This document shows positions 2,695 to 58,678 of a DNA stretch of 64,000 nucleotides, piece by piece. Position numbers and translations under genes: made by a program. This DNA comes from Gracilimonas sp. (GTDB lineage: Bacteria > Bacteroidota > Rhodothermia > Balneolales > Balneolaceae), in NCBI GenBank assembly GCA_022450045.1, contig JAKURD010000001.1:338960-402959 (forward strand), given 5' to 3'. The notes beneath the pieces are model-generated. The model saw only the letters and a program-made list of their open reading frames with translations, made no database searches and was not told where the DNA came from. Each line of letters opens with the position of its first letter. Positions within the stretch are counted from its first letter, which is position 1.

Positions 2695-2881
2695 CGAACA
2701 CGACCTGAGGATAACCCATCTGACCGGGAGGCAGTGCAAACAACCCCGAATTCGATCTGATGGACCACCCATCTGATCAATGATACAGGTGCAGGATGTT
2801 GGATTAGCACACGAAATGAACTTGAGTGCCCCCATCCAACAATCGGTCAGACGGCTTAGAGCCGGTAGACCGGGAGGTAGT
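2695..2881. repeat. R1 REP-like repeat unit
   Basis: One R1 unit between mutL and the mannosyltransferase. Hairpin 1 at 2754-2778 has arms GATCTGATGG and CCATCTGATC with a T.T mismatch at the fifth pair. Hairpin 2 at 2844-2872 has outer arms CGGTC and GACCG. A degenerate partial hairpin lies at 2702-2725. The 264-base gap between the genes is otherwise empty. Confidence 0.8.
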
Positions 2882-14237: not shown

Positions 14238-14646
14238 CTAAATAAGATAGTCGATGGAATTAAACGTTCTGTCTATAGCAGGCGAACTGCAAATCTTAGC
14301 TCCAATTTTGAGATACATTTTTAGAAGTATTGGAATGTCAACAGGTTCTTTTTTTGTCAAGATTTTACTTTCACTTTTATAAACATCCTGACCGGGGGCA
14401 AAATATTTGGTGTGGAGTTGGTTTTTTTCTTTTAGAAAACGATATAACTGCCAACCCTTCTCAGAATTAACTAAATTCAAAGAACAGCACCAAAATAAGA
14501 ATCTTTTTTTGAGTATTAGGTAATTTGCCATTCCTTTCCATAATAAGAGCAAAACTCTGCTATTTCTGTGCAGAGGAGCAACACAAGCTTGTCCTAATTT
14601 AACCCCGCTAGTCAGCTATTCGCAGGACAAAAGATCTATCTTAAAT
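14238..14646 (-). pseudogene. OlsB-like GNAT N-acyltransferase, truncated and with a premature stop
   Basis: The frame shows the C-terminal half of the OlsB/putative hemolysin acyltransferase family: VKLGQACVAPLHRNSRV (family: ELGRxCVxPxYR), LLLLWKGMANYL, and at the end PILLKMYLKIGAKICSSPA with FNSIDYLI. Reading upstream, an in-frame TAG lies at 14616-14618, but similarity continues through it (FKIDLLSCE before the stop) until an R3 element begins at 14647. The N-terminal half is absent on the far side of R3. The gene is therefore dead through both a nonsense codon and truncation. It lies upstream of the PlsC-like gene, an olsBA-like order. Confidence 0.75.
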
Positions 14647-14933
14647 CAATAGCGTCCTAAACGTTGAAATACATTTTGGTAAAACGATCCTTCAAAAGGA
14701 TTCTCGCAGAGTTCCGCAAAGGATATCGCAGAGTTGCGCTGAATAGCGATGCGTATTGATAAAAGATCATCTGCGCTCCGAGCGCAGCGATTCCCACGAA
14801 GTAAAACTCAGCGGGTTAATCGGCGAGCCTCTGCGAGAAAAAAGTGGGGTTGATTTTAAACATGTCAACTCATCCGTTTATATCTTCGAAAACACAGGTT
14901 TTTTCAATTTTGAAAACGTTTAGGACGCTATTG
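14647..14933. repeat. R3 element, copy 1 (287 bp, 19-bp terminal inverted repeats)
   Basis: Begins CAATAGCGTCCTAAACGTT and ends with its exact reverse complement (14915-14933). The interior is about 90% similar to the copy at 58302-58562 in the opposite orientation, apart from a roughly 26-bp extra palindromic stretch near 14772-14800. It has no ORF. It directly abuts the olsB pseudogene. No target duplication is recognisable for this copy. Confidence 0.85.
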
Positions 14934-15400
14934 GTCATACTCATATCCTTACATAGGCAAGATTCTTCAGGAGTACCTTCAGAATGACTAATTTATTATG
15001 TTCAATTATGCAGGCTTTTCCAATACTGTATGAGGCCATTCAGGCTGAAAAGAGAATCAAAGGGAAGGACAGAACATGGAAAGAAAAGTTGATTACCAAA
15101 AGAAACCCTAAATGGAATTCTTTGAATAAAGGCATCCTTGGTGAGTGGCCCCAAATAAGACGTTGTCTCTCGGGTCATCCTGAGGATACCTCCGAAGGAT
15201 CTTGCCTTTTACGAAGCATCGATGTTTGAATGACTCAAAATAGATGAAGTGGCCAGCATGTAGTTTATGTCATACTCATATCCTCAAATAGGCAAGATGG
15301 TCTTTCGCGGCGAATGCCCGAAATCTAATTGTTTTTTTAGGTATCTATGATTGAATTACCGGCAATAATAAGATCCCTGCCTTCGCAGGGATGACTTTCC
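14934..15400. repeat. R4 imperfect-palindrome repeats with a GIY-YIG fragment, 14.9-15.4 kb
   Basis: Contains R4 ends (AAGATTCTTCAGGAGTACC, then TCATCCTGAGGATACCTCCG) around a GIY-YIG gene fragment, then a second R4 start near 15268 and a piece of R2 interior (TTTCGCGGCGAATGCC at 15303-15318). The stretch 14960-15240 is nearly identical to the reverse complement of 39050-39300. Between 15400 and the hydrolase start I see nothing further. Confidence 0.75.
14984..15229 (+). pseudogene. GIY-YIG endonuclease C-terminal fragment inside R4
   Basis: The open frame encodes ILYEAIQAEKRIKGKDRTW then KEKLITKRNPKWNSLNKG, the C-terminal signature of small YhbQ/URI-type GIY-YIG nucleases (pattern EAI..EK.IKG..R..K..LI...NP.W..L). 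The catalytic GIY and YIG part is missing upstream. The last 30 residues are translated R4 repeat. A second copy, with a deletion of about 27 bp, lies at 39139-39276 on the other strand. Confidence 0.6.
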
Positions 15401-26191: not shown

Positions 26192-26389
26192 TTAAAGTCA
26201 GTTCAATATAAAGACTATCTGTTGAACACGTTGAATGGGCATTTCGCAGCGAATGCCGGAAATCCTATGGTTGGTCAGGTATCCAATATGGAAGTAATGG
26301 CAACCATTAGATTCCCGTCTCCACGGGAATGACCACACACATCCATTTTTATCCTTTTACCTTAGTTCTTATCTCGAACGGACGTTAAT
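26192..26389. repeat. R2 element, copy 1 (198 bp)
   Basis: Ends TTAAAGTCAGTTCAATATAA and (right) CTTATCTCGAACGGACGTTAA form imperfect terminal inverted repeats. The interior has two small palindromes: CATTTCGCAGCGAATG and ATTCCCGTCTCCACGGGAAT. The next 55 bases (26390-26445) match those at 58246-58301. The remainder of the pilC to MFS gap is AT-rich and shows no gene. Confidence 0.8.
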
Positions 26390-29462: not shown

Positions 29463-30026
29463 ATGAACGCAGACCATACTTTTGAATACAGTAGTATTAA
29501 CTACAAAGAATTTTTAAGAAAATTCAGAAACTTTGATTCATCCAAACATACTCTCATCGTGTTTGCCGGTCCTTTTCACACCAACAGAAATGCGGCGATG
29601 GATGAACTGAAGCGGGAAGTGATCGGTAAAGTAGTGGAAGTTGATCTGGCTGAGATCATTACCCCATATGAAGAAGAAACGTATCAGAATATTGACAAGG
29701 CCTTAGAGGACATTGATCAGAAAGCCTCACTCATTATTTTTAGAAATGCAGAGCAATTAAATGGAGTTTATACGGCTTTCTCAGGCTCTATCGTTAAATA
29801 TGCTACTCCTCAAGAAAAGTATTTCCTCCTAAAAGTGAAGAACATAAAAGCACCCGTGGTTCTGGAATTCAAAGATTTTGATCAACTTGACCGGACCGTT
29901 GTTCGAACAGCTGATTCTGTTGTGTACTTCCGCCCCCCTTCCTCCCTCATCGAGAGATTAGTATGGAAATTACAGAATGTTCACGTTCATGGATCAAGCT
30001 TCTTATCCCCCCGGCCTGTTAAATAA
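29463..30026 (+). CDS. Hypothetical protein, possibly a degenerate AAA+-like fold
   Basis: 187 aa from the ATG at 29463. The strand pattern resembles an AAA+ core: LIVFAGPFHTNRNAAMDEL occupies the Walker A place but lacks the GKT, KASLIIFRNAEQLNGVY is like a Walker B strand with Asn-Ala in place of DEA, and PVVLEFKDFDQLDRTVVRTA resembles the sensor-1 and Arg-finger region. ATP binding is therefore unlikely. I do not recognise a named family; the fold idea is inference. The stop codon TAA is the first base triplet of the following R2-type repeat end. Confidence 0.6.
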   Translation: MNADHTFEYSSINYKEFLRKFRNFDSSKHTLIVFAGPFHTNRNAAMDELKREVIGKVVEVDLAEIITPYEEETYQNIDKALEDIDQKASLIIFRNAEQLNGVYTAFSGSIVKYATPQEKYFLLKVKNIKAPVVLEFKDFDQLDRTVVRTADSVVYFRPPSSLIERLVWKLQNVHVHGSSFLSPRPVK

Positions 30027-30340
30027 CGTGAATTCGATATAAAGAATGTTAGAATAGCTGTAAGATCCGTCTAATGGACGGACTGAACGATGGCTCAGGC
30101 GCAGGGTGCTGGATTAGGCCAAGGAAAAGACGTAGGTGCTCCAACCAGACAATCGGTCAGATGGACCTGGAGCCATCAGACCGAGAGGTAGATTACACAA
30201 CCACGAACTCGATCTGATGGATCACCCATCTGATCGATGATATAGGCCCCGGGTGTTGGCTTAGGATAAGAATAAGCTTAAGTGCCCACAAGCATCCATT
30301 TTGTCCTTTTAACTTAGTTCTTATCTTGAACTCACGTTAA
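30024..30340. repeat. Composite element: R2-type ends enclosing R1 hairpins
   Basis: Left end TAACGTGAATTCGATATAAA (30024) and right end CTTATCTTGAACTCACGTTAA (to 30340) are the R2 terminal repeats, but the interior is R1: hairpin 2 (CGGTCAGATGG ... CCATCAGACCG, 30153-30183) then hairpin 1 (30211-30235). The left end overlaps the stop codon of the preceding gene. From 30341 to 30447 only AT-rich leader sequence is seen. Confidence 0.75.
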
Positions 30341-30672: not shown

Positions 30673-31174
30673 GGTGTTAGGTTCGAGGTTTTAGGTGTTA
30701 GGGTTTGGCCTTAATCCTATTTTTTTAGAGAAAGGTTTGTAAGGTTCTTTATTTACATCGCTCTTACATAGTGAATGAAATTTAAAAAATCATCACTATG
30801 AAAAACTTCAAGAAACTTATTGTTTGGCAAAGAAGCATCGAACTTGCTTCTGAAATAAGAACAATCTCCTCTAAACTTCCTATAAAAGAGCAGTATACCC
30901 ATAGAGATCAAATTATAAGATCATCAATATCTATTCCTTCCAATATAGCTGAGGGCTGTAGCAGAGAAAGCAGAAAAGATTTTAAACGATTTCTGAGAAT
31001 AGCACTGGGTTCTTGCTTTGAACTTGAGACTCAACTTATTTTGCTCAAACAAAATGAAATAATTCAGTCAGGCTCTCTACTAAAAGCATTAGATTACAGC
31101 GATGAAGTTCAAAAAATGTTGCATACCCTGTTAAAGAAATGATCTAACACCTAAAACCTTACGCCTAACACCTT
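30671..31174. mobile_element. Inverted-repeat cassette carrying a four-helix-bundle gene
   Basis: A 31-nt arm at 30671-30701 is matched in inverted orientation at 31144-31174 with 27 of 31 identities; the outer 11 and inner 16 bases are exact (inner AGGTTTTAGGTGTTAG). The arms closely frame one gene, the right arm starting 2 nt after its stop codon. Such framing suggests a small non-replicative cassette or group of mobile repeats; no transposase is present. Confidence 0.55.
30798..31142 (+). CDS. Four-helix bundle protein (S23/IVS, bAvd-like family)
   Basis: 114 aa. Family marks are FKKLIVWQRSIELASEI, the DQIIRSSISIPSNIAEGCSR motif and KDFKRFLRIALGSCFELETQ. This family includes proteins encoded in 23S rRNA intervening sequences and is related to Avd of diversity-generating retroelements. 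Its function outside those settings is unknown. There is no reverse transcriptase nearby. The inverted repeats around it are its most notable feature. Confidence 0.9.
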   Translation: MKNFKKLIVWQRSIELASEIRTISSKLPIKEQYTHRDQIIRSSISIPSNIAEGCSRESRKDFKRFLRIALGSCFELETQLILLKQNEIIQSGSLLKALDYSDEVQKMLHTLLKK

Positions 31175-31713: not shown

Positions 31714-31901
31714 TTAACGTGAATTTGATATAAAGACAATCTGTTGAATGATTATTTCGCGGCGAATGCCCGAAATCTTATGGCTGGTCAGGTAGCGAAT
31801 ACGGAATTAATGGCCACCATTAGATTCCCGTCTCCACGGGAATGACCAAAAGAATCCATTTTTATCCTTTTAACTTAGTTCTTATCTCGAACTCACATTA
31901 A
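31714..31901. repeat. R2 element, copy 2 (188 bp)
   Basis: Left end TTAACGTGAATTTGATATAA, right end CTTATCTCGAACTCACATTAA, same interior palindromes as copy 1. The right end directly abuts the stop codon of the nei-like gene (31902). Confidence 0.85.
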
Positions 31902-34425: not shown

Positions 34426-34472
34426 TGCTTTCGTTTGAGGTACAAAACTAAACCCTTTTTACCAAAAGCACT

Positions 34473-34632
34473 CGATCCGATGGACGTGGAGCCATCAGGC
34501 CGGGAGGCAGAATACACACAACCACGAGCTCGATCTGATGGATCACCCATCTGATCGATGATGCAGGCGCAGGGTGTTGGATTAGGATACGAACTGAACG
34601 TGGTTGCTCGAATCCAACAATCGGTCAGATGT
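34473..34632. repeat. R1 REP-like unit (34.5 kb)
   Basis: Hairpin 1 at about 34532-34556 (GATCTGATGG ... CCATCTGATC), the internal stem TGTTGGATT / AATCCAACA, and the start of hairpin 2 at 34621 that is cut off after CAGATG. A degenerate hairpin 2 lies at 34473-34503. Confidence 0.8.
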
Positions 34633-34698
34633 GCAGAAGTCAGCTGATTCGTTGAGCGTTTTAGTTCTTTGGGTTTCGCTGCCCTTCCTTCCCCTGCT

Positions 34699-35178
34699 TG
34701 TCATTTCGAACGCAGTGCAGGGAGTGAAAACGAACGAAACGTAGCTGAGAAATCTACGGAGTCGAAAAGAGCAGTATTGCTGAATGACCCAGGGGGGATT
34801 TTCATGCTTTTTATGTTAATAGCGAGCCTCGTCATTCTGAGGGTATTCCCGAAGAATCTCGCCTTTGCAGGGATGAGAGTATGACATACACTACACAATA
34901 TGCCAGCCACTTCTTCTATTCTTGGTTACTCAAACCCTATGCTTCGCAAAAGGCAAGGTTCATCGCTCTCGCTCTGAATGACTGGGGGTATTCATGCCTT
35001 TTAATTCGATATCAAGCTTAGTCATTCTGAGGGTACTCCCGAAGAATCTCGCCTTTGCAGGGATGGGAATCAGAACCAAACTTCCAACGCTCCACTACAC
35101 CGTATCCATTCACCATAAACCTCGGTGCTTCGCAAAAGGCGGGGTTCATTGTTCTCGCTCTGAATGACCAGGGTACCT
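34699..35178. repeat. R4 repeats (34.7-35.2 kb)
   Basis: Two tandem R4 units, each starting GTCATTCTGAGGGTA-TCCCGAAGAATC and ending near CTCGCTCTGAATGAC, with CTTCGCAAAAGGC in the inverted half. They fill the 770-nt gap between the sialidase-like gene and the MORN lipoprotein; no gene is seen. Confidence 0.75.
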
Positions 35179-36610: not shown

Positions 36611-36900
36611 AAACAACCACGGACTCGATCTGATGGATTACCCATCTGATCGATGGATTAGGCCTCGGATGTTGGAGTAGGTTAAGAATACGCTTGGGTA
36701 CTCGAATCCAGCAATCGGTCAGATGGCTTGGAGCCGGCAGACCGGGAGGCAGGTTCAACCATTCCCAAACCCGATCTGACGGATCACCCGTCTGATCGAT
36801 GGTACATGCCCCGGATGTTGGATCAGGTTAAGAATACGCTTGGGTACTCGAATCCAACAATCGGTCAGATGGACTTAGAGCCATCAGACCGAAGAGGCAT
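36611..36900. repeat. R1 REP-like cluster, two tandem units, left of RAYT
   Basis: Two full units. Unit 1: hairpin 1 at 36627-36651, hairpin 2 at 36716-36743 (GATGG against CCGGC). Unit 2: hairpin 1 at 36772-36796 with GACGG / CCGTC, a compensated change from GATGG / CCATC; hairpin 2 at 36862-36890. Each unit also has a TGTTGGA-type internal stem. Confidence 0.88.
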
Positions 36901-36922
36901 GTATTTAATTTCATTTCATTAA

Positions 36923-37531
36923 TTAATATAGTTTTTGAATGACTGATTCAGGAATGGTCTGTTCTGAGATCTTAATAAATTCATGAGGATCACTCGGCAA
37001 ATCAAATAAATCGAAAGCCAACTCTTTATTGCAAAGTCTTCCTTCCCTTAATCCTGCATAATCACGAAAAGAAGAAAACTTCCAGTCCTCCATCCTATGT
37101 ACCAATCCTGCCCTTATTGGGTTTTGATGAATGTAAAAGAAACAATTTACTCCGTAATTATCTGCGTCCCTTTCATTCTCTGTCAAAGACTTCGCTTTAG
37201 TTCTGGTTCTGAACAAAGAACCGCTTCGTTCATGTTTTTTATTAATTGCTTGGGTATAAGAACTTTGCAGTGAACCAATGCTTCGATTTAACGGATCGAT
37301 TATTTTCTGTTTATTCTCAAGTTTAGGTAGACTTGGATAACTCTCTTTTACCTTGATAAGCCAGTGAAAATGGTTCGGCATCAGACACCAAGCTAAGATA
37401 TCCGCATGTGGCGTAAGGTGGTGCTTCATTTTCTCGATGAAATACAGATAGTTTTCTTTATCAAAGAAAATGTTCTCCCTGTTATTTCCTTGATTATAGA
37501 CGTGATAAGTGTGTCCCGAATAAAATTCCAT
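36923..37531 (-). CDS. REP-associated tyrosine transposase (RAYT, Y1_Tnp/IS200-like)
   Basis: 202 aa. The HUH pair is seen in WCLMPNHFHWLIKV (about residues 48-61), and the catalytic Tyr is probably in CFFYIHQNPIRAGLV (about 131-145), the RAYT signature. The N-terminal HTYHVYNQGNNRENIFFD is also typical. R1 repeats flank the gene closely on both sides (from 22 nt on one side and about 34 nt on the other). RAYTs move or maintain REP/REPIN sequences in many bacteria. The frame is intact, so it may be active. The link to R1 is by position and hairpin type. Confidence 0.9.
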   Translation of the reverse strand: MEFYSGHTYHVYNQGNNRENIFFDKENYLYFIEKMKHHLTPHADILAWCLMPNHFHWLIKVKESYPSLPKLENKQKIIDPLNRSIGSLQSSYTQAINKKHERSGSLFRTRTKAKSLTENERDADNYGVNCFFYIHQNPIRAGLVHRMEDWKFSSFRDYAGLREGRLCNKELAFDLFDLPSDPHEFIKISEQTIPESVIQKLY

Positions 37532-37564
37532 GAAAGAGAATAATAAATCACTCTGTAACTACCA

Positions 37565-37900
37565 AGAACCCGATCCCATCTGATCGAAAGATAGATTAAA
37601 CAACCACGAACCCGATCTGATGGAAACCCCATCTGATCGATGATACAGGCGCAGGGTGCTGGATTAGGATACGAACTTAACGTGGGTACTCGAATCCAAC
37701 AATCGGTCAGACGGCTTGGAGCCGGCAGACCGAGAAGTAGGTCAAACATTCCCGGACTCGATCTGATGGATTACCCATCTGATCGATGAATCAAGCCTCG
37801 AAAACATGACATGTATACAGGACTACCCGCGGTGAGTGAATCCAACCATAGTTCAGATGGACTTGGAGCCATCAGACCGGGAGGCAGGTTACACATTCCC
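37565..37900. repeat. R1 REP-like cluster, right of RAYT
   Basis: Partial hairpin at 37571, a full unit with hairpin 1 at 37613-37638 and hairpin 2 at 37704-37732 (GACGG against CCGGC), then another unit with hairpin 1 at 37759-37784 and hairpin 2 at 37853-37880. The cluster runs to the stop of the SDR gene. Confidence 0.88.
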
Positions 37901-38632: not shown

Positions 38633-38767
38633 AAATAGATGGTATTAATTTGAATAAATATTCTGCAATCAAAATAACTTCATCCGTTGATTCAATCAAA
38701 GTTTAGAACAAAATATATTCTTGGTGACTGAGTTTTGGATGAAGTTTTTTAATTCAAAATAAACCCA

Positions 38768-39122
38768 GTCATTCTGAGGGTACTCCCGAAGAACCTTGCC
38801 TATTTAGGGAACAGAATTACAATCAAATTACCAATGCGCTACTTTTCCCCAACCATGCAATGCAAACTCCCATGCTTCGCAAAAAGCAAGATCCTTCGCT
38901 CCGCTCTGGATGACTCGGGAGTTATTAATGCCTCTTATCTCAAACAAAAACCATTTATTATATCAACCCATTCATTCTGAAGATACTACCGAAGAATCTT
39001 ACTTATGTTAGGGAAATGTGTACGACATAAACAAGAAACGCTCAACTTCGTCTATTCTTGGTCATTCAAACATCGATGCTTCGCAAAAGGCAAGATCCTT
39101 CGGAGGTATCCTCAGGATGACC
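38768..39122. repeat. R4 repeats, two units
   Basis: Units at 38768-38917 and 38969-39122, each with left arm TCATTCTGA-(G/A)G(G/A)TACT and right arm containing CTTCGCAAAA-GGCAAGATCC. The right arm is the imperfect reverse complement of the left. Confidence 0.75.
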
Positions 39123-39138
39123 CGGGAGATAACGTCTA

Positions 39139-39276
39139 ATTTGGGGGCCACTCACCAAGGATTTCTTTTGGTAATCAACTCTTCTTTCCATGTTCTGTCC
39201 TTCCCTTTAATTCTCTTTTCAGCCTGAATGGCCTCATACAGTATTGGAAAAGCCTGCATAATTGAACATAATAAGT
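39139..39276 (-). pseudogene. Second GIY-YIG endonuclease C-terminal fragment
   Basis: Read on the minus strand this matches the fragment at 14984-15140 (AFPILYEAIQAEKRIKGKD and WKEELITKRN), but about 27 bp encoding the NPKWNSL region are deleted. It is framed by R4 units on both sides. Confidence 0.55.
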
Positions 39277-39432
39277 TAGTCATTCTGAAGGTACTCCTGA
39301 AGAATCTTGCCTATCTAAGGAGATGAGTATAATATAAACTACTTGCCGGCCACTTCGTCTATTCTTGGTCATTCAAACATCGATGCTTCGCAAAAGGCAA
39401 GGTTCATCGCTCTCGCTCTGAATGATCGGGGT
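39277..39432. repeat. R4 repeat unit next to queE
   Basis: Left arm TCATTCTGAAGGTACTCCTG at 39277, right arm near CTCGCTCTGAATGATC at 39432. With the preceding units it fills the 840-nt gap between the SDR gene and queE. Confidence 0.7.
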
Positions 39433-44012: not shown

Positions 44013-44209
44013 TAAAGTCAGTTCGAGATAAGGAATAAATTAAAAGGATAAAAATGGATGCTTGTGGTCATTCCCGTGGAGACGGGAATCTAATGGTGCC
44101 ATGATTTCAGTATTCGATACCAGGCAAACCATAGGGTTTCGGGCATTCGCTGCGAAATGGCCATTCAACGTGTTCAACAGATGGCCTTTATATCGAATTC
44201 ACGTTTTAT
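44012..44209. repeat. R2 element, copy 3 (198 bp, inverted)
   Basis: TTAAAGTCAGTTCGAGATAA at 44012 and CTTTATATCGAATTCACGTT at the other end, with palindromes ATTCCCGTGGAGACGGGAAT and CATTCGCTGCGAAATG inside. It lies between the phosphopantetheinyl transferase start codon and the tRNA-Ser gene. Confidence 0.85.
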
Positions 44210-52139: not shown

Positions 52140-52159
52140 CACAACCACAACCTTTCAAG

Positions 52160-52434
52160 CAATCAGTCAGATGGACTTGGAGCCATCAGACCGGGAGGCA
52201 GGTTACACATTCCCGGGCTCGATCTGATGGATCACCCATCTGATCGATGGTGCAGGCGTAGGGTGTTGGATGAGGCTAAGAACAAGCTTGGGTGCTCGAA
52301 TCAGGCAATCGGTCAGATGGACTTGGAGCCATCAGACCGAGGAGCAGATTAAACATTCCCAGATTCGATCAGATGGATGTTGTAGCTATTTTAAACTTCT
52401 TTTAGACACATTCTTTATCTTGAACTCACATTAG
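52160..52434. repeat. R1 REP-like cluster with an R2-type right end
   Basis: Hairpin 2 at about 52161-52193, hairpin 1 at 52222-52247, hairpin 2 again at 52310-52340, then a half hairpin 1. The right edge TTATCTTGAACTCACATTA (52414-52432) is an R2-type terminal repeat. The left R2 end is missing. It lies where mazF would be expected. Confidence 0.8.
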
Positions 52435-52496: not shown

Positions 52497-53434
52497 ACCT
52501 CATAAACTGAAGCAGATATTCCCATCGAATAATAATGTAAACCCGGAACGCCATATTCCATTAGCTCTTTGGATTGCTGAATGGTCCACTCAATTCCCAC
52601 CTGAATAACCTCTTCCCTGTTTTTACAGGCTTCTACGGCTTTCGATAACTCCATAGGCAGATCCACATGAAAAAGCTGGGGTAAGATCGTCAGTTGTTTA
52701 TTAGATGTAATGGGTTTCAGACCCGGAATGATAGGAAGTGTAATTCCGGCCTCTCTGCATTTTTCAACAAAATTAAAATACGACTGATTATCGAAGAACA
52801 TCTGGGTGACGATATAATTGCCCCCTTTTTCTTGTTTTAACTTCAGATACTTTAGATCCGTCTCCATATTCGGTGCTGCAAAGTGTTTCTCAGGATATCC
52901 GGCCACTCCAATACAGAAATCTGAAGGCTTCGCGTTTTGAAGCTCTTCATCCAGATAAATCCCATTATTAAGCTCTACAACCTGCTCAATTAAACCTGAA
53001 GCATGAGCATGACCATCCGGCTCAGCTACAAATTCCCGCTCCGGTTTCCTGGTATCTCCCTGAATTAACAGCACATTGTCAATTCCTAGAAAATTAAGAT
53101 CGATAAGAGCGTTCTCTGTGTCCTCTTTTGAAAACCCACCACAAATGATATGCGGAACTGCATCCACCTGATAATGATTTTGAATGGCCGCGCAGATCCC
53201 AACCGTACCAGGACGTTTACGCACCGTCTTGCGCTCAAGCAATCCATTGCCCCGCTTCTTATATATAAACTCTTCCCGGTGATAGGTTACATCCACAAAA
53301 GGTGGATTGAATTCCATCAGCGGATCCATGTGATCAAACAAAGAGCGAATATTCTGTCCCTTTAAAGGCGGTAAAACCTCAAACGAAAACAGGGTGTTAC
53401 CATTGGCTTTCTTAATGTGCTCAGTTACTTTCAT
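52478..53434 (-). CDS. metF: 5,10-methylenetetrahydrofolate reductase
   Basis: 318 aa. [19 protein letters not shown] with the catalytic Glu, [18 protein letters not shown] and [20 protein letters not shown] are typical of MetF. It supplies 5-methyl-THF for MetH. It overlaps metH part 2 by 4 nt, so it belongs to the SAM-regulated methionine operon and closes it. Confidence 0.95.
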
Positions 53435-56130
53435 TTCCTCTCTGGATCGTAGTCTAAATTAGGAGAAAGCCATTTTTCAACTTCCTCTTTGGTACATGAT
53501 TTTCGTCTGGCATATTCGATGACCTGATCTTCCCCAATATTTCCCACCCGGAAATATTTCGATTGTGGATGTGAAAAATAAATACCACTCACTGATGAAG
53601 CCGGGTACATCGCAAAAGATTCCGTGAGTTTAATCTGGGCATTTTTTTCCACTTCCATCAGATCAAACAAAATGCGTTTCTCGGTATGATCGGGACAGGC
53701 GGGATAACCCGGAGCTGGTCGAATTCCGGAATATTTCTCAGCGATCAGCTCTTCATTTTTGAAATTTTCTTCGTCTGAATATCCCCAAAATTCTTTACGA
53801 ACGCGCTCATGCATGCGTTCCGCAAAAGCTTCAGCCAGCCGATCAGCCATGGCTTTTACCAGAATTGCCATATAATCATCATTGGCTTTTTTGTATTTGG
53901 TAATGATGTCTTCAATGCCAACTCCGGCCGTTACAGCAAAGAAGCCAATGTAATCCGTAATTCCGGCTTCGCGGGGAGCAATGTAGTCAGCAAGGCTTGA
54001 ATTTGGCTGGCCTGCCCGCTTCTTAGTTTGTTGCCTGAGAAAATGGAATTCCGCCAGTTCCTCTGACAGGTCTTCATCTTTATATATCTTTATATCATCA
54101 CCGTAACTTACTGTGGGATAAAAACCTATCACTCCTTTTGATTTCAATAAATTCTGCTCAACAATTTCATCCAGCAATTTATTCGCATCATCAAAAAGAG
54201 ACTGTGCCTGTTCGCCTACCGTCTCATCTTTCAGGATATCAGGATATTTTCCAGTAAGCATCCAGGTTCGGAAAAAGGGCGACCAGTCAATGTAATTTCT
54301 TAATTCTGAAATGGGATAATCTTCAAAGGTCCTGGTTCCCAAAAAGGTGGGTTTTGGGGGATTATATCCTTCCCAGTCTATTTCTACTTTGTTACTTCTC
54401 GCTTCCTCAATACTCAAAATCGGTTTTTTATTCTGACGCTCTTCGTGCTGCTTGCGTAGTTCAGCATATTCTTTCTTAACATCGATTTTGACACCGCCTT
54501 TTCGCTCCTTACTGATAACATCTCCGGCAATGGATACAGCTCTTGAGGCATCCAATACATGAATAATGGATCCTTCATATTCAGGATCGATCTTCACTGC
54601 GGTATGAAGGCGTGAGGTTGTTGCCCCGCCAATGAGCAGCGGCAGATCCATGCCTCGCTTCTTCATTTCGCGAGCCACATGGATCATTTCATCGAGGGAA
54701 GGCGTGATCAATCCACTTAAACCAATGGCATCCACTTTATGCTTCCCGGCTTCATCCAGGATCTTGTCGGCCGGGACCATCACTCCAAGATCAACCACAT
54801 CGTAATTATTACAAGCCAGAACTACACTTACAATGTTTTTACCGATGTCGTGCACATCACCTTTTACGGTAGCCAGTAGTACTTTAGGGCGTTCACTCTT
54901 GTCTTTGTTATCCGCCTTCTCCTTTTCAAGATATGGGGTGAGATAGGCTACAGCCTGTTTCATTACTCGTGCACTTTTCACTACCTGTGGCAAAAACATT
55001 TTCCCTGAGCCAAAAAGATCTCCAACTACATTCATGCCATCCATGAGCGGCCCTTCAATCACCTGCAAAGGGCTTCCATATTTAACACGGGCCTCTTCCG
55101 CATCTTCTTCAATGTGTTCATTGATCCCTTTTACCAGAGAATGTCTGATCCGGTCTTCCACAGGATTTTTGCGCCATTTATCGTCTTTTTTGGCTTTAAC
55201 AGAAGATTCTTCATTCTTGAACTCTTCCGCGATTTCCATAAGTCGTTCCGTGGCATCATCCCTTCGATCAAAAAGCACATCTTCTACTCGTTCAAGCAGA
55301 TCTTCAGGAATGTCGTCATACACCTCAAGCTGGGTGGGATTTACAATTCCCATATCCATTCCGTGCTTAATAGCGTGATATAGGAATGCAGAGTGAATAG
55401 CTTCGCGTACACGGTTATTTCCCCGGAAAGAGAACGATACATTGCTCACACCTCCGATAACGTGTGCTCCGGGAAGATTCTCACGTATCCACTTGGCAGC
55501 CAGGAAGAAATCCATCGCATTCTGCCTGTGTTCCTCCATTCCGGTAGCTACCGGAAAGATATTGGGATCGAGGATGATATCGGAAGCATGAAATCCAGCT
55601 TCTTTGGTTAGCAGTTTATACGCCCGGTCACAGATCTCTTTTCGTCGCGAAAGTGTATCGGCTTGACCATCTTCGTCAAACGCCATACAAATTACGGCTG
55701 CGCCAAAGCGTCGAATGATCTTTGCTCGTCGCAGGAATTCCTCTTCCCCATCCTTCAGGCTGATTGAATTTACTATGCCCTTACCTTGCATGCATTTCAA
55801 CCCGGCCAGGATCACTTCCCACTTTGAAGAATCTACCATTATAGGAATTTTTGCGATATCGGGCTCAGAGGCTATAAGATGCATGAAACGCGTCATTTCA
55901 ATAGCACTGTCCAGCATGCCCTCATCCATGTTCACATCCAGGATCTGCGCCCCGCCCTGCACTTGATCGAGCGCAATTTTAAGCGCCTGATCATAATCTT
56001 TATTCTTAATGGTATTAAGAAATTTCCTGGAACCGGTCACATTGGTTCGCTCTCCTACATTCACGAAGTTAGAATCTTCCGTGATGATAAGAGGTTCAAG
56101 TCCGCTAAGTGTTAAAGGTAATGACTTCAT
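53431..56130 (-). CDS. metH: Methionine synthase, part 2 (pterin, cobalamin and AdoMet domains)
   Basis: 899 aa. Order of domains: pterin-binding barrel ([16 protein letters not shown] at about residues 22-37, [12 protein letters not shown]), cobalamin cap, B12 Rossmann domain with [11 protein letters not shown] (DxHxxG, about 428-436), and the AdoMet reactivation domain at the end ([19 protein letters not shown]). The homocysteine domain is encoded separately upstream, so MetH is split in two. Between the halves lies a 66-codon ORF that overlaps both by 4 nt. Confidence 0.95.
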
Positions 56131-56327
56131 GCTATCTCACCACAGAAAGTTTTAGAATTCCAGCTCTTTGTCTGGCGGCTCCAAACCCATCTGGCGAATG
56201 GAATACACGAGCCTTGCCCTGTAAATCCATCAGATGACTCTTGCTTTAGATTCATTTTTAGAGACCTATTTTCAGTCGTCAGATGGGGTCCAGGGTTGTT
56301 TTCTGTTGATTGTTCAAATCTACTCAT
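56127..56327 (-). CDS. 66-codon coupled micro-ORF between the metH halves, built partly from R1-like repeat
   Basis: It runs from an ATG overlapping the metH part 1 stop (ATGA) to a TGA overlapping the metH part 2 start (ATGA). The DNA contains a degenerate R1 hairpin 2 (minus strand GCCAGATGGGTTTGGAGCCG at 56175-56194, then CCAGAC) and hairpin-1-like words (CATCTGATGG). The peptide ([20 protein letters not shown] in the repeat part) has no family I know. It probably arose by repeat insertion at an existing ATGA junction, keeping a coupled frame. Whether the peptide matters is unknown; it would at least keep ribosomes passing to part 2. Confidence 0.5.
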
Positions 56328-57334
56328 ACTAATACTCCATCCGTTCTTTTGACTTTTCGGTGCGAATATTTTTCAGCCAGTTCAGCCATTTTAGTAATGT
56401 GTGCAGGAGTTGTTCCACAACAACCGCCGAGAATATTAACCAATTCATCTTCAAGGTATTCTTCAACCTGACTTCCCATTTCATCCGGCCCCTCATCATA
56501 TTCTCCAAATTCATTCGGTAATCCTGCATTCGGGTATGCACTAATGTAGAATGGAGATCTGTCAGATAGATTTTGCAGATATGGTTTAAGCTGCTTGGCT
56601 CCAAGAGCACAATTGAAGCCAACACTGAGAATAGGTGCATGGGAAACAGAGATCAAAAATGCTTCCACGGTTTGGCCGGAAAGGGTTCTCCCCGAAGCAT
56701 CGGTGATCGTCCCTGAAACCATAATGGGGATCTCCTCTTCCCGCTCCTCAAATAAATCCTGGATAGCGAATAAAGCGGCTTTGGCGTTGAGTGTATCGAA
56801 AATGGTTTCTACCAGCAGTACATCCGCTCCTCCATCCATGAGCCCTCTTGCCTGCTCTTTATAAGCCTCAGCAAGTTCATCGAAGGTAACAGCTCTATAA
56901 CCGGGGTCAGTAACTTCCGGGGAAATGGAGGCCGTTTTGTTTGTCGGTCCCATCGAGCCCGCTACAAACCTTGGTTTATCCGGATTTTGTTGGGTGAATT
57001 TATCCGTGGCCTTTTTTGCGATCTCCGCTGATTTCCGATTCAGGTCATACACAATATGTTCCAGGGCATAATCAGCCTGGGCGATGGATGTTCCGCTGAA
57101 GGTATTCGTCTCTACGATATCGGCCCCGGCCTCCAAATATTCCTCATGGATGGCCTGTATGATCTCCGGCCGGGTTAAACTAAGCAGATCGTTATTTCCT
57201 TTTAGATCATCGGAATGATCTTTGAATTGTTCGCCCCTGAAATCTTCTTCTTCCAGCTTATAGCGCTGTATCATGGTACCCATGGCCCCATCGAGGATCA
57301 GGATTCGGTTCTGTAAAGCTTGTTTAATATTCAC
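56324..57334 (-). CDS. metH: Methionine synthase, part 1 (homocysteine S-methyltransferase domain)
   Basis: 336 aa from a GTG at 57334, chosen because [20 protein letters not shown] is the conserved start; a GTG at 57403 would lie inside a regulatory hairpin. Zinc ligands are in SVGFNCALG and [31 protein letters not shown] is typical of MetH. It transfers a methyl from cobalamin to homocysteine together with part 2. It is first in the operon behind a SAM-I riboswitch. Confidence 0.93.
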
Positions 57335-57397
57335 TCTTTCATCGTTAGATTGGCTTATACAGAAAGAGCGGAGAGTGATTAGCTCGCTTATCTTTCT

Positions 57398-57502
57398 AAG
57401 CACATAACTAAATTATGTGCTTAGTGGGATTTGGCACCTGCCCCTTTCTGAAGTGGTTGCCAAGACGTCATCGGGCCCATCCCTCGGTCTTTCTTTATAA
57501 GC
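57398..57502 (-). ncRNA. SAM-I (S-box) riboswitch controlling metH-metF
   Basis: On the minus strand the aptamer (57502-57419) shows GACCGAGGGATGGGCCCGAT, then GGCAACC, then GGTGCCAAATCCCACTAAGC, the conserved S-box core, with P1 formed by GCTTA and TAAGC. The P1 3' strand is also the 5' arm of a perfect 10-bp hairpin AAGCACATAA / TTATGTGCTT (57398-57422), so aptamer and hairpin exclude each other. No T-run follows, so control may be at translation or through a later hairpin. P3 is short. Confidence 0.88.
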
Positions 57503-57710
57503 ATTCAATAAATAATTTCAATGAATATAACGGTCTCTAATGCGCTGAGCAACCTATTATTATGAATTAATTACAGACATATAAAGTCGAAACAATTTTG
57601 GGAATGAAACACGAATGACAAGGATTAGGTGGATGATCGTGAAAAAAATAATGCAATCGGCCTTAGAAAAAAAGCATTAAGAAGATGACGATATGAAGCG
57701 TGAAGAAGTA

Positions 57711-57880
57711 GATCATTCGATATAAAAATAATCGGCTAAGTACATTAAGGGATTATTTCACAGCGAATGCCTGATATCCTAAGGTTGGTCAGACAGCGAA
57801 TACGGAAGTAATGGCCACCATTAGATTCCCGTCCCCACGGGAATGACCATGCGCATCCATTTTTATCCTTTTAACTTAAC
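57711..57880. repeat. R2 element, copy 4 (truncated)
   Basis: Degenerate left end (TTCGATATAAAAATA), interior palindromes as in other copies (ATTCCCGTCCCCACGGGAAT), but the right end stops at CTTTTAACTTAA and runs straight into the next composite element. 57503-57710 contains no recognisable gene. Confidence 0.75.
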
Positions 57881-58256
57881 GTCAGTTCGATGTAATTATC
57901 CCCAGTAAAGCCTTTGAGGCACGGTCTGCCGACTCGTAGTCCATCTGACCATTTGCTTGATTCCGGCACCTAAACTTGTTCGTATTCTAATCCAACATCC
58001 TGCGCCTACGCCATCGATCAGATGGGGTTTTCATCAGATCGAATCCGAAAATGTGTAACCTGTCTCTCGGTCTGATGGCTCCAAGCCCATCTGACCGATT
58101 GTTTAATTCGAGCACCAAGTTCAGTTCGTATTCTAATCCAACACCCGCCCCTTGTATCACCCATCAGACGGGGTTTCCGTTAGATGGGTCTTGCAGCTAT
58201 TTTAAAATTCTTTTTGGAGCATTCTTTATCTCGAACGGACGTTAATCTACTTTACC
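57876..58256. repeat. Composite element: R2-type ends around inverted R1 units
   Basis: Left end TTAACGTCAGTTCGATGTAA, right end TTTATCTCGAACGGACGTTA (to about 58246). The interior is R1 in reverse orientation: CGGTCTGATGGCTCCAAGCC followed by CATCTGACCG near 58058-58090, and hairpin-1-like pairs at 58018-58045 and 58148-58185. Confidence 0.7.
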
Positions 58257-58301: not shown

Positions 58302-58562
58302 CAATAGCGTCCTAAACGTTTTTAAAATTGAAAAAAAACCTGTGTTTTCGAAGATAAAAATGGATTAGCTGACATGTTTAAAATCAATCCCCTTTTTTTC
58401 TCGCAGAGGCACGCCGATTAACCCGCTGAGTTTCGCCGATGATCTTTTATCAAAACACATCGCTATTCAGCGTAACTCTGCGATATCCTTTGCGGAAATC
58501 TGCGAGAATCCTTTTGAAGGATCGTTTTACCAAAATGTATTTCAACGTTTAGGACGCTATTG
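58302..58562. repeat. R3 element, copy 2 (261 bp) with 9-bp target duplication
   Basis: Same 19-bp terminal inverted repeats as copy 1. It is flanked by ACATAGAGC (58293-58301) and ACACAGAGC (58563-58571), one mismatch in nine. A related sequence at 26390-26450 has ACATAGAGCC without the insertion, in otherwise matching flanks. It has no ORF, so it must be moved by a transposase elsewhere. Confidence 0.85.
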
Positions 58563-58678
58563 ACACAGAGCCTTTATTTTTTTATAAGCAATTTATTTAT
58601 CCATTGCAATTATCTCGTATATTTATACTTTTTTCACCCCAACATCCATTTAATTACCTATGACCTCTACCCCATCTG

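Follow-up and report, generated by a model that had tools for sequence, protein, structure and literature searches.

What a locus at positions 36,611 to 37,900 of the window (the whole 64,000-nucleotide stretch of Gracilimonas sp. DNA analysed here) raises is the question of how a transposase-like gene is related to the hairpin repeats on either side of it, and what has carried those repeats elsewhere. A first-pass annotation had placed an intact RAYT between two clusters of a repeat called R1, and the ORF at 36923-37531 (minus strand) is indeed flanked by two arrays of two units each. Further copies, which it had put at 2.7, 30.1, 34.5, 52.2 and 57.9 kb, were located at 2742-2876, 30058-30289, 34443-34634, 52153-52341 and 57918-58197 (the last on the minus strand). 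The RAYT gene and the R1 copies of the window are as follows.

36923..37531, minus strand: RAYT (TnpA-REP-like) gene, 202 aa; HUH motif H54-F-H56, catalytic tyrosine candidate Y92
36615..36892, plus strand: R1 array of two REPIN units (36615-36747 and 36761-36892) on one side of the RAYT gene; without MITE ends
37602..37883, plus strand: R1 array of two REPIN units (37602-37735 and 37748-37883) on the other side of the RAYT gene; without MITE ends
2742..2876, plus strand: single R1 unit; no MITE ends found
30024..30339, plus strand: R1-bearing MITE of 316 bp; terminal inverted repeat (TIR) at both ends, target-site duplication (TSD) TAAATA, R1 at 30058-30186 and 30199-30289
34443..34634, plus strand: partial R1 array; no MITE ends found
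52153..52341, plus strand: R1 array followed by an inverted left MITE end and TIR (about 52415-52434); other side without TIR
56168..56201, minus strand: degenerate R1 fragment between two metH-like ORFs
57877..58244, minus strand: R1-bearing MITE of 368 bp; TIR at both ends, no exact TSD, R1 at 57918-58052 and 58065-58197

The degenerate copy, previously assigned to the inside of metH, sits at 56168-56201 (minus strand) in the gap between the metH-like ORFs 53431-56130 and 56324-57403; the metH-like gene is in two ORFs, and an old insertion may have split it. An Rfam search of the window returned two matches, neither in R1, and a SAM riboswitch was placed by Rfam at 57385-57503 (minus strand), upstream of the first metH-like ORF. 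A gene for a 23S rRNA-intervening-sequence-type protein (PF05635) at 30798-31142 adjoins an R1-bearing MITE. The window also holds another dispersed repeat family, of the GTCATTCTGAGGGTACTCCCGAAGAATCT kind, at 14937-15298, 34794-35174 and 38731-39432, with GTCAT starts and, in a TIR scan, no TIR bracketing, as well as an inverted repeat pair at 14646-14904 and 58333-58563 that is 92-96% complementary over 101 and 130 nt.

The RAYT gene is present as a single copy in the 3.5-Mb draft genome (G000, 71 contigs, 96.8% complete). Its profile scores fall under the curated cut-offs, with 21.2 for Pfam Y1_Tnp (cut-off 23) and 65.6 bits for NCBIfam NF047646 (cut-off 80). An AlphaFold model built on an alignment of 36 sequences reached a pLDDT of 92.5, and its top PDB match was 4er8, a RAYT with a bound REP hairpin (Foldseek E 1.8e-7, TM 0.54/0.64, 21% identity). 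In an alignment of 18 of the 21 close loci described below (L049, L053 and L060, being broken or short, were excluded), H54, H56 and Y92 are invariant, and the middle residue of the HUH motif is F, or Y in 4 of the 18; in a wider alignment of 36 sequences, made up of our RAYT and 35 of 80 wider loci, H54 is invariant and H56 and Y92 are conserved in at least 90%. The identity proposed at first sight is thus borne out by the fold match and the conserved HUH and tyrosine residues, and the ORF is filed here as RAYT-like on its predicted fold, its residues and the adjoining REPs, despite the sub-threshold profile scores. The protein is a probable single-strand DNA-cutting enzyme.

R1 recurs through the genome well beyond chance, with 66 matches at E≤0.001 in 3.5 Mb; the pattern TCWGAYGGN{3,12}CCRTCWGA was found at 150 places, compared with 1 for the reversed control. 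The 66 matches, found through the R1 sequence itself, give the 44 loci analysed below, which are a subset because other scans show more R1 in the genome (one R1 scan scored at most nine candidates per genome). Two R1 units, partial units included, are present at 27 of these 44 loci; in arrays the units repeat with a period of 146 nt. The arms of hairpin 1 read CGATC-T-GATGG / CCATC-T-GATCG and those of hairpin 2 CGGTC-A-GATGG / CCATC-A-GACCG, so that hairpin 2 is the reverse complement of hairpin 1, a feature absent from the first-pass annotation. Because of this inversion, the T.T and A.A mismatches are one mismatch read from two strands. R1 is therefore built like a REPIN, from two REPs in opposite orientation that some 64 nt of spacer separate. 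As in REPINs, the two inverted REPs are dispersed between genes, and none of the 44 loci lies inside an ORF of at least 130 aa. No GTAG stands beside either hairpin in the R1 unit consensus, which places R1 outside the REPs defined by that motif. The mismatches, taken initially to be fixed, are nearly so: among 57 near-full units aligned out of 83 places, hairpin 1 has T.T in 56 and hairpin 2 has A.A in 53, but the other 4 have A.G.

Each hairpin has one pair that switches between T-A and C-G, in 40 and 11 of the 57 units for hairpin 1 and in 25 and 20 for hairpin 2, and pairing at the alternating pair of each hairpin exceeds that in all 300 shuffles (0/300), a count to be read with the common descent of the copies, which are hence not independent. 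Many of the C-G cases in hairpin 1 are leftmost units of arrays, so these cases may be one event. A single long hairpin across both REPs was also considered. Such a fold pairs well (82.6% and 92.1% of cells, compared with 86.0% and 84.0% for the local fold), but the covarying columns show no covariation across hairpins, where their pairing is not above shuffled (82 versus 87% and 62 versus 69%), and the long fold is the less favoured of the two. By covariation alone, the alignment favours two local hairpins over one long fold. The DNA-fold z-scores of six R1 units in the window were -2.0 to -4.2 for four, and -1.8 and -1.9 for the other two.

We then compared the flanks of our RAYT with those of 20 close orthologues (21 loci in all), searching them mechanically for stems that have ten or more pairs and a single mismatch, with dinucleotide shuffles as the control. 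A one-mismatch stem of any kind was found at 15 of the 21 loci (0.45 loci in shuffles), and a stem with a homo-mismatch at 11 (0.15 in shuffles), on both sides in 8 of them; it is missing at the other 10. All homo-mismatches at these loci have the form C-X-G/C-X-G in stems of differing sequence (0.01 in shuffles), with X being A or T at most loci and G in G025. When 46 stems from 12 loci were oriented by the purine of the mismatch, C preceded it in 45 of 46 and G followed it in 44 of 45; at the 5' foot, A is present in 37 and T in 39 of the 46 stems, with no mirror of this on the 3' side. The foot of these stems reads A-T-Y (37-39 of 46) and not GTAG, and L042, L044, L053, L046 and L056 deviate in the foot. 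In E. coli the unpaired state, not the identity of the base, seems to matter, according to the available part of PMC8266576, and the varying X fits with this. Across 80 named RAYT loci, mostly from Bacteroidota, any one-mismatch stem was found at 26, a homo-mismatch at 11 and the C-X-G form at 8 (2.6, 1.0 and 0 in shuffles). A homo-mismatch as a hallmark of all RAYTs was rejected, with 72 of the 80 wider loci lacking the C-X-G form; since only 8 have it, the mark is confined to part of the RAYT group. The proposed link between mismatched REP-like stems and RAYTs is nonetheless upheld by the same kind of mismatch around orthologues, at 11 of the 21 loci. The expectation that the RAYT phylogeny tracks R1 variants holds for the closest pairs only, but not for the whole set: a Mantel rank correlation of RAYT against flank similarity over all pairs was null, whereas the 7 pairs richest in shared flank 9-mers have a RAYT similarity of 0.667 versus 0.514 (0/20000), a threshold test that came after the null Mantel result and includes a pair, L055/L056, that on visual inspection seems to have a neighbouring gene in common.

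A RAYT match at E≤1e-10 was obtained in 49 of the family's 92 genomes, among them G025 of the same genus, where it lies at 90574-91176 of the contig. R1-type hairpins, with their 150 places, are much more frequent in our genome than in the 91 relatives, where they number 0 to 27; G091 (27) and G001 (20) have the most, and none of the other 89 has more than 13. At least three such hairpins are present in 10 of the 21 genomes with a close RAYT (E<1e-50) versus 9 of the 71 others (Fisher p 0.0013). R1 is therefore not equally common without a RAYT, the outcome that would have told against the first reading, but the association is not strict: G026, G027 and G031 hold 8, 5 and 13 and have no RAYT match at E≤1e-10. 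A second REP type (of the L045/L050/L051 kind, allowing up to 3 mismatches) is found in 7 of the 92 genomes; a close RAYT is present in G046, G055 and G063, the richest three, and in G054, a distant one only in G061, and none at 1e-10 in G050 and G051. G091 has the REPs closest to R1, and although its RAYT (L049) looks damaged in the N-terminal part, these REPs are abundant. The R1-like unit of G091 gives 32 matches in that genome, against a single TIR place, so REPs of the R1 kind can disperse without the TIR family.

In our genome, the dispersed R1 arrays have outer ends in common, finishing in a terminal inverted repeat, TTAACGTGAGTTCGAGATAA and variants. That such repeats bracket most of the dispersed arrays examined had also escaped the first-pass annotation. 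The TIR ACGTGAGTTCGAKATAA, which starts AC, occurs at 215 places (117+98) with up to 3 mismatches, and its reversed control at 0/0. At least one TIR end (up to 5 mismatches) was found at 34 of the 44 R1 loci and both ends at 19, while 1 of 400 shuffled window pieces attained the TIR-end score; the 10 loci without a MITE end include both RAYT-flanking arrays, and two are near contig ends. Our genome yielded 48 elements with both TIR ends, and 32 of them carry R1, which is not an unbiased share because the elements were chosen partly through R1 loci and partly among about 100 of the 215 TIR places. Exact duplications of 6-7 nt of the form TAnn(n)TA flank 13 of the 32 complete R1-bearing elements (shuffled mean 1.9) and are lacking in the other 19; they also flank 9 of 16 own elements without R1 (shuffled 1.14) and 19 of 41 elements sampled from a few other genomes (1.9), so that the own elements with one total 22 of 48, and none of 2000 shuffles was as high in any set. 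The sizes of the R1-bearing MITEs recur, at 316-319 and 366-369 bp, and the sequence between TIR and R1 is conserved. No R1 was found in the 41 elements sampled elsewhere. The TIR itself is present in 58 of the 92 genomes, some of them without a RAYT match (for example, G071, G041 and G049), and is missing from G001, G004, G007 and G008, all with a close RAYT; because each occurs without the other, the TIR family is independent of the RAYT. The implication of the first reading that the RAYT dispersed the other R1 copies is not supported, given the 34 loci with a MITE end and the TSDs of the R1-bearing MITEs. Instead, R1 has probably spread largely as MITE cargo. Since most of the other copies examined sit in unrelated mini-elements, two kinds of mobile DNA seem to spread R1.

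Evidence on the transposase behind the TIRs came from other genomes, the TIR being present in 10 of 118 sampled genomes of the phylum. In G186, two TIRs span 1022 bp from outer end to outer end. Between them lies an IS982-family transposase gene in two frames, whose pieces, searched separately, score 57.5 and 184.2 bits versus NF033520 (cut-off 130). Two G055 loci have similar IS982 fragments directly inside the TIR and different outer flanks. A search for an autonomous element by PF01609 in G000, G022, G055, G064 and G071 gave no locus flanked by TIRs on both sides and was discarded; the PF01609 loci L225 and L231 have one TIR-like site each. In our own draft genome (96.8% complete), no IS982-like transposase was found, and its one PF01609 match is dissimilar to the IS982 pieces; a parent transposase in the same genome is not needed for an orphan MITE. 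As described in the available part of PMC7335449, IS982 repeats mostly start AC and have direct repeats of variable length, features with which our TIR and its variable duplications agree, and IS982-derived MITEs are known in Cardinium (PMC9769881, available part).

The same TIRs also enclose elements without R1, three of them in the window.

26193..26387, no strand assigned: sister MITE without R1, 195 bp; same TIR, GTCAT-tagged hairpin
31715..31900, no strand assigned: sister MITE without R1, 186 bp; same TIR, GTCAT-tagged hairpin
44013..44206, no strand assigned: sister MITE without R1, 194 bp; same TIR, GTCAT-tagged hairpin

A GTCAT-tagged hairpin is present in all 16 own elements without R1 and in 16 of the 41 elsewhere (0.02 and 0.04 in shuffles), and in none of the 32 R1-bearing elements; a tagged pair in both orientations, by the same criterion, was found in only 6 own elements and 4 elsewhere. 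One such hairpin has a stem of 8, a loop of 4 and a CTA tail, and in the examples GTC is preceded by G or A. CGTC REPs are defined by a CGTC tag, a stem of 8-9 starting AT, a loop of 4-5 and a short tail, which the sister-MITE hairpins would resemble in form, and the available part of PMC3733652 reports CGTC REPs without a transposase. Element interiors fold better than their shuffles, with median z of -2.4 for R1-bearing elements, -2.5 for own elements without R1 and -4.0 for those elsewhere, compared with 0.01 for random window pieces. Elements of other genomes (L096-L143 and L243), about 70-480 bp in length, have the same TIR around very different, strongly foldable interiors. We tentatively suggest, as a reading somewhat less probable than not, that IS982-type TIR shells serve, in Balneolaceae and beyond, as a general carrier of REP-type hairpins, a constant shell with exchangeable cargo, the cargo being RAYT-cognate REPINs in our genome and CGTC-like REPs in the sister elements. 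If so, REPs without a transposase would gain a way to move, and RAYT substrates could multiply without the RAYT.

Altogether, we consider it likely that the locus is a REPtron with REPIN-type R1, and that an R1 array then came to lie in an IS982-type MITE whose transposition spread most copies. One RAYT gene would have its cognate REPs on either side, R1 being real and the probable cognate repeat of the gene at 36923-37531. Each unit would be of REPIN/BIME type, with two inverted REP copies that form local hairpins of about 11 pairs, each with one unpaired step (C-T-G/C-T-G, or C-A-G/C-A-G on the other strand) and a 5' A-T foot facing the spacer. Judging by E. coli TnpA-REP, the RAYT would most likely bind the folded single strand via foot and mismatch and cut beside it. 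A miniature transposon with ends of IS982 type may have captured the REPIN array, or the array may have arisen within it, and the TIRs and target duplications suggest that an IS982-family transposase moved those MITEs and so spread most R1 copies; RAYT cleavage and MITE transposition are both read here from sequence.

The unit was originally described as more complex than a REPIN, with a fixed third stem in the middle, and R1 would then be a three-stem unit in which this stem is a working part. The middle stem has 8 of 9 pairs in two of the four RAYT-flanking copies, 7 in one and 2 in the fourth, and 7 or 8 of its nine pairs are Watson-Crick in 36 of the 57 aligned copies. However, 80% of its cells are paired in the 57 copies, about as in shuffled columns, no covariation was seen, and one of the nine pairs is G.A in 40 of 57; the copies share descent, and the best 9-bp match anywhere in shuffled spacers reaches at least 7 in 228 of 570 and 8 in 21 of 570. 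In the units of L049, the nearest relative, the middle stem is absent by eye. We regard a working third stem as hardly credible and R1 as a REPIN whose spacer is complementary in part; REP dimers with structured spacers have been described in the available part of PMC3733652.

Another explanation is that all R1 copies were spread by the RAYT, with the TIR elements serving as no more than favoured insertion sites, comparable to the palindromes that hold REP dimers in A. variabilis and H. neapolitanus (PMC3733652, available part). The 32 matches to the R1-like unit in G091, a genome with one TIR place, show that such dispersal is possible without the TIR family, but duplications at the outer TIRs in 13 of 32 elements, recurrent sizes and a conserved sequence between TIR and R1 are what copies of one composite would be expected to have, and we judge this explanation unlikely. 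R1 could also be unconnected to the RAYT, a mere MITE part between copies of which the RAYT landed by chance. That most R1 loci examined are in MITEs is in keeping with this, as is the null rank correlation of RAYT and flank similarity. Yet in other genera, too, related REP pairs with a mismatch of this kind flank the orthologues, several of those genomes (G001, G004 and G007) are TIR-free, and the arrays flanking our RAYT are without MITE ends; a chance association is accordingly very improbable. The REPtron whose repeat later became MITE cargo thus remains the preferred reading.

If it is true, one genome provides two routes for one repeat, and REP abundance is not simply readable as RAYT activity. 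The spread of REPs is described as unresolved in the available part of PMC8266576 and, for CGTC REPs, in that of PMC3733652. That the mismatch is kept amid a changing stem is a pointer to the feature recognised by the enzyme, and for a single-strand cleavage assay the roughly 20 orthologues provide a ready panel of REP pairs. The parts are known (a RAYT with atypical REPs, a REPIN, an IS982-type MITE) and their combination is unreported in the literature searched, a search with supplements and most subscription journals outside its scope, which returned no REPs inside IS982-type MITEs and no Balneola REPs.

Among known systems, as far as the available parts of the cited sources describe them, RAYT/TnpA-REP subclass 2.6 (RAYT group 5), mostly from Bacteroidetes (PMC6006769), shares with our locus a Bacteroidota-type RAYT and GTAG-free REPs that also occur elsewhere in the genome. 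The REPs of this subclass are atypical structures found by manual inspection; the C-X-G homo-mismatch and 5' A-T foot are not among the features described in that part of the source. From host phylum and atypical REPs, our RAYT would belong to this subclass. REPINs and BIMEs (PMC8266576, PMC3116915) likewise consist of inverted REP pairs, often in tandem, with a single RAYT nearby and a stem mismatch, whereas R1 is without GTAG and most examined copies are inside TIR elements (compared with PMC8266576). Our MITEs resemble MITECca01 of Cardinium (PMC9769881) and the IS982 family (PMC7335449) in a TIR starting AC, a short non-coding body of similar size and variable direct repeats; unlike the Cardinium elements, ours hold REP-type hairpins, and their parent transposase was not found in the genome. 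The GTCAT-tagged hairpins of the sister MITEs recall CGTC REPs (PMC3733652), but they are enclosed by TIRs, and the examples carry GGTC or AGTC as the tag. REP dimers in palindromes and TIRtrons (PMC3733652) also have REP-type repeats within, or replaced by, inverted repeats, whereas the outer repeats of our elements are accompanied by TSDs and correspond to those of an IS982 transposase element. Finally, a MITE of Porphyromonas gingivalis with a minisatellite (PMC4596501) similarly carries a repeat unit, but R1, in contrast, has a transposase-type partner of its own.
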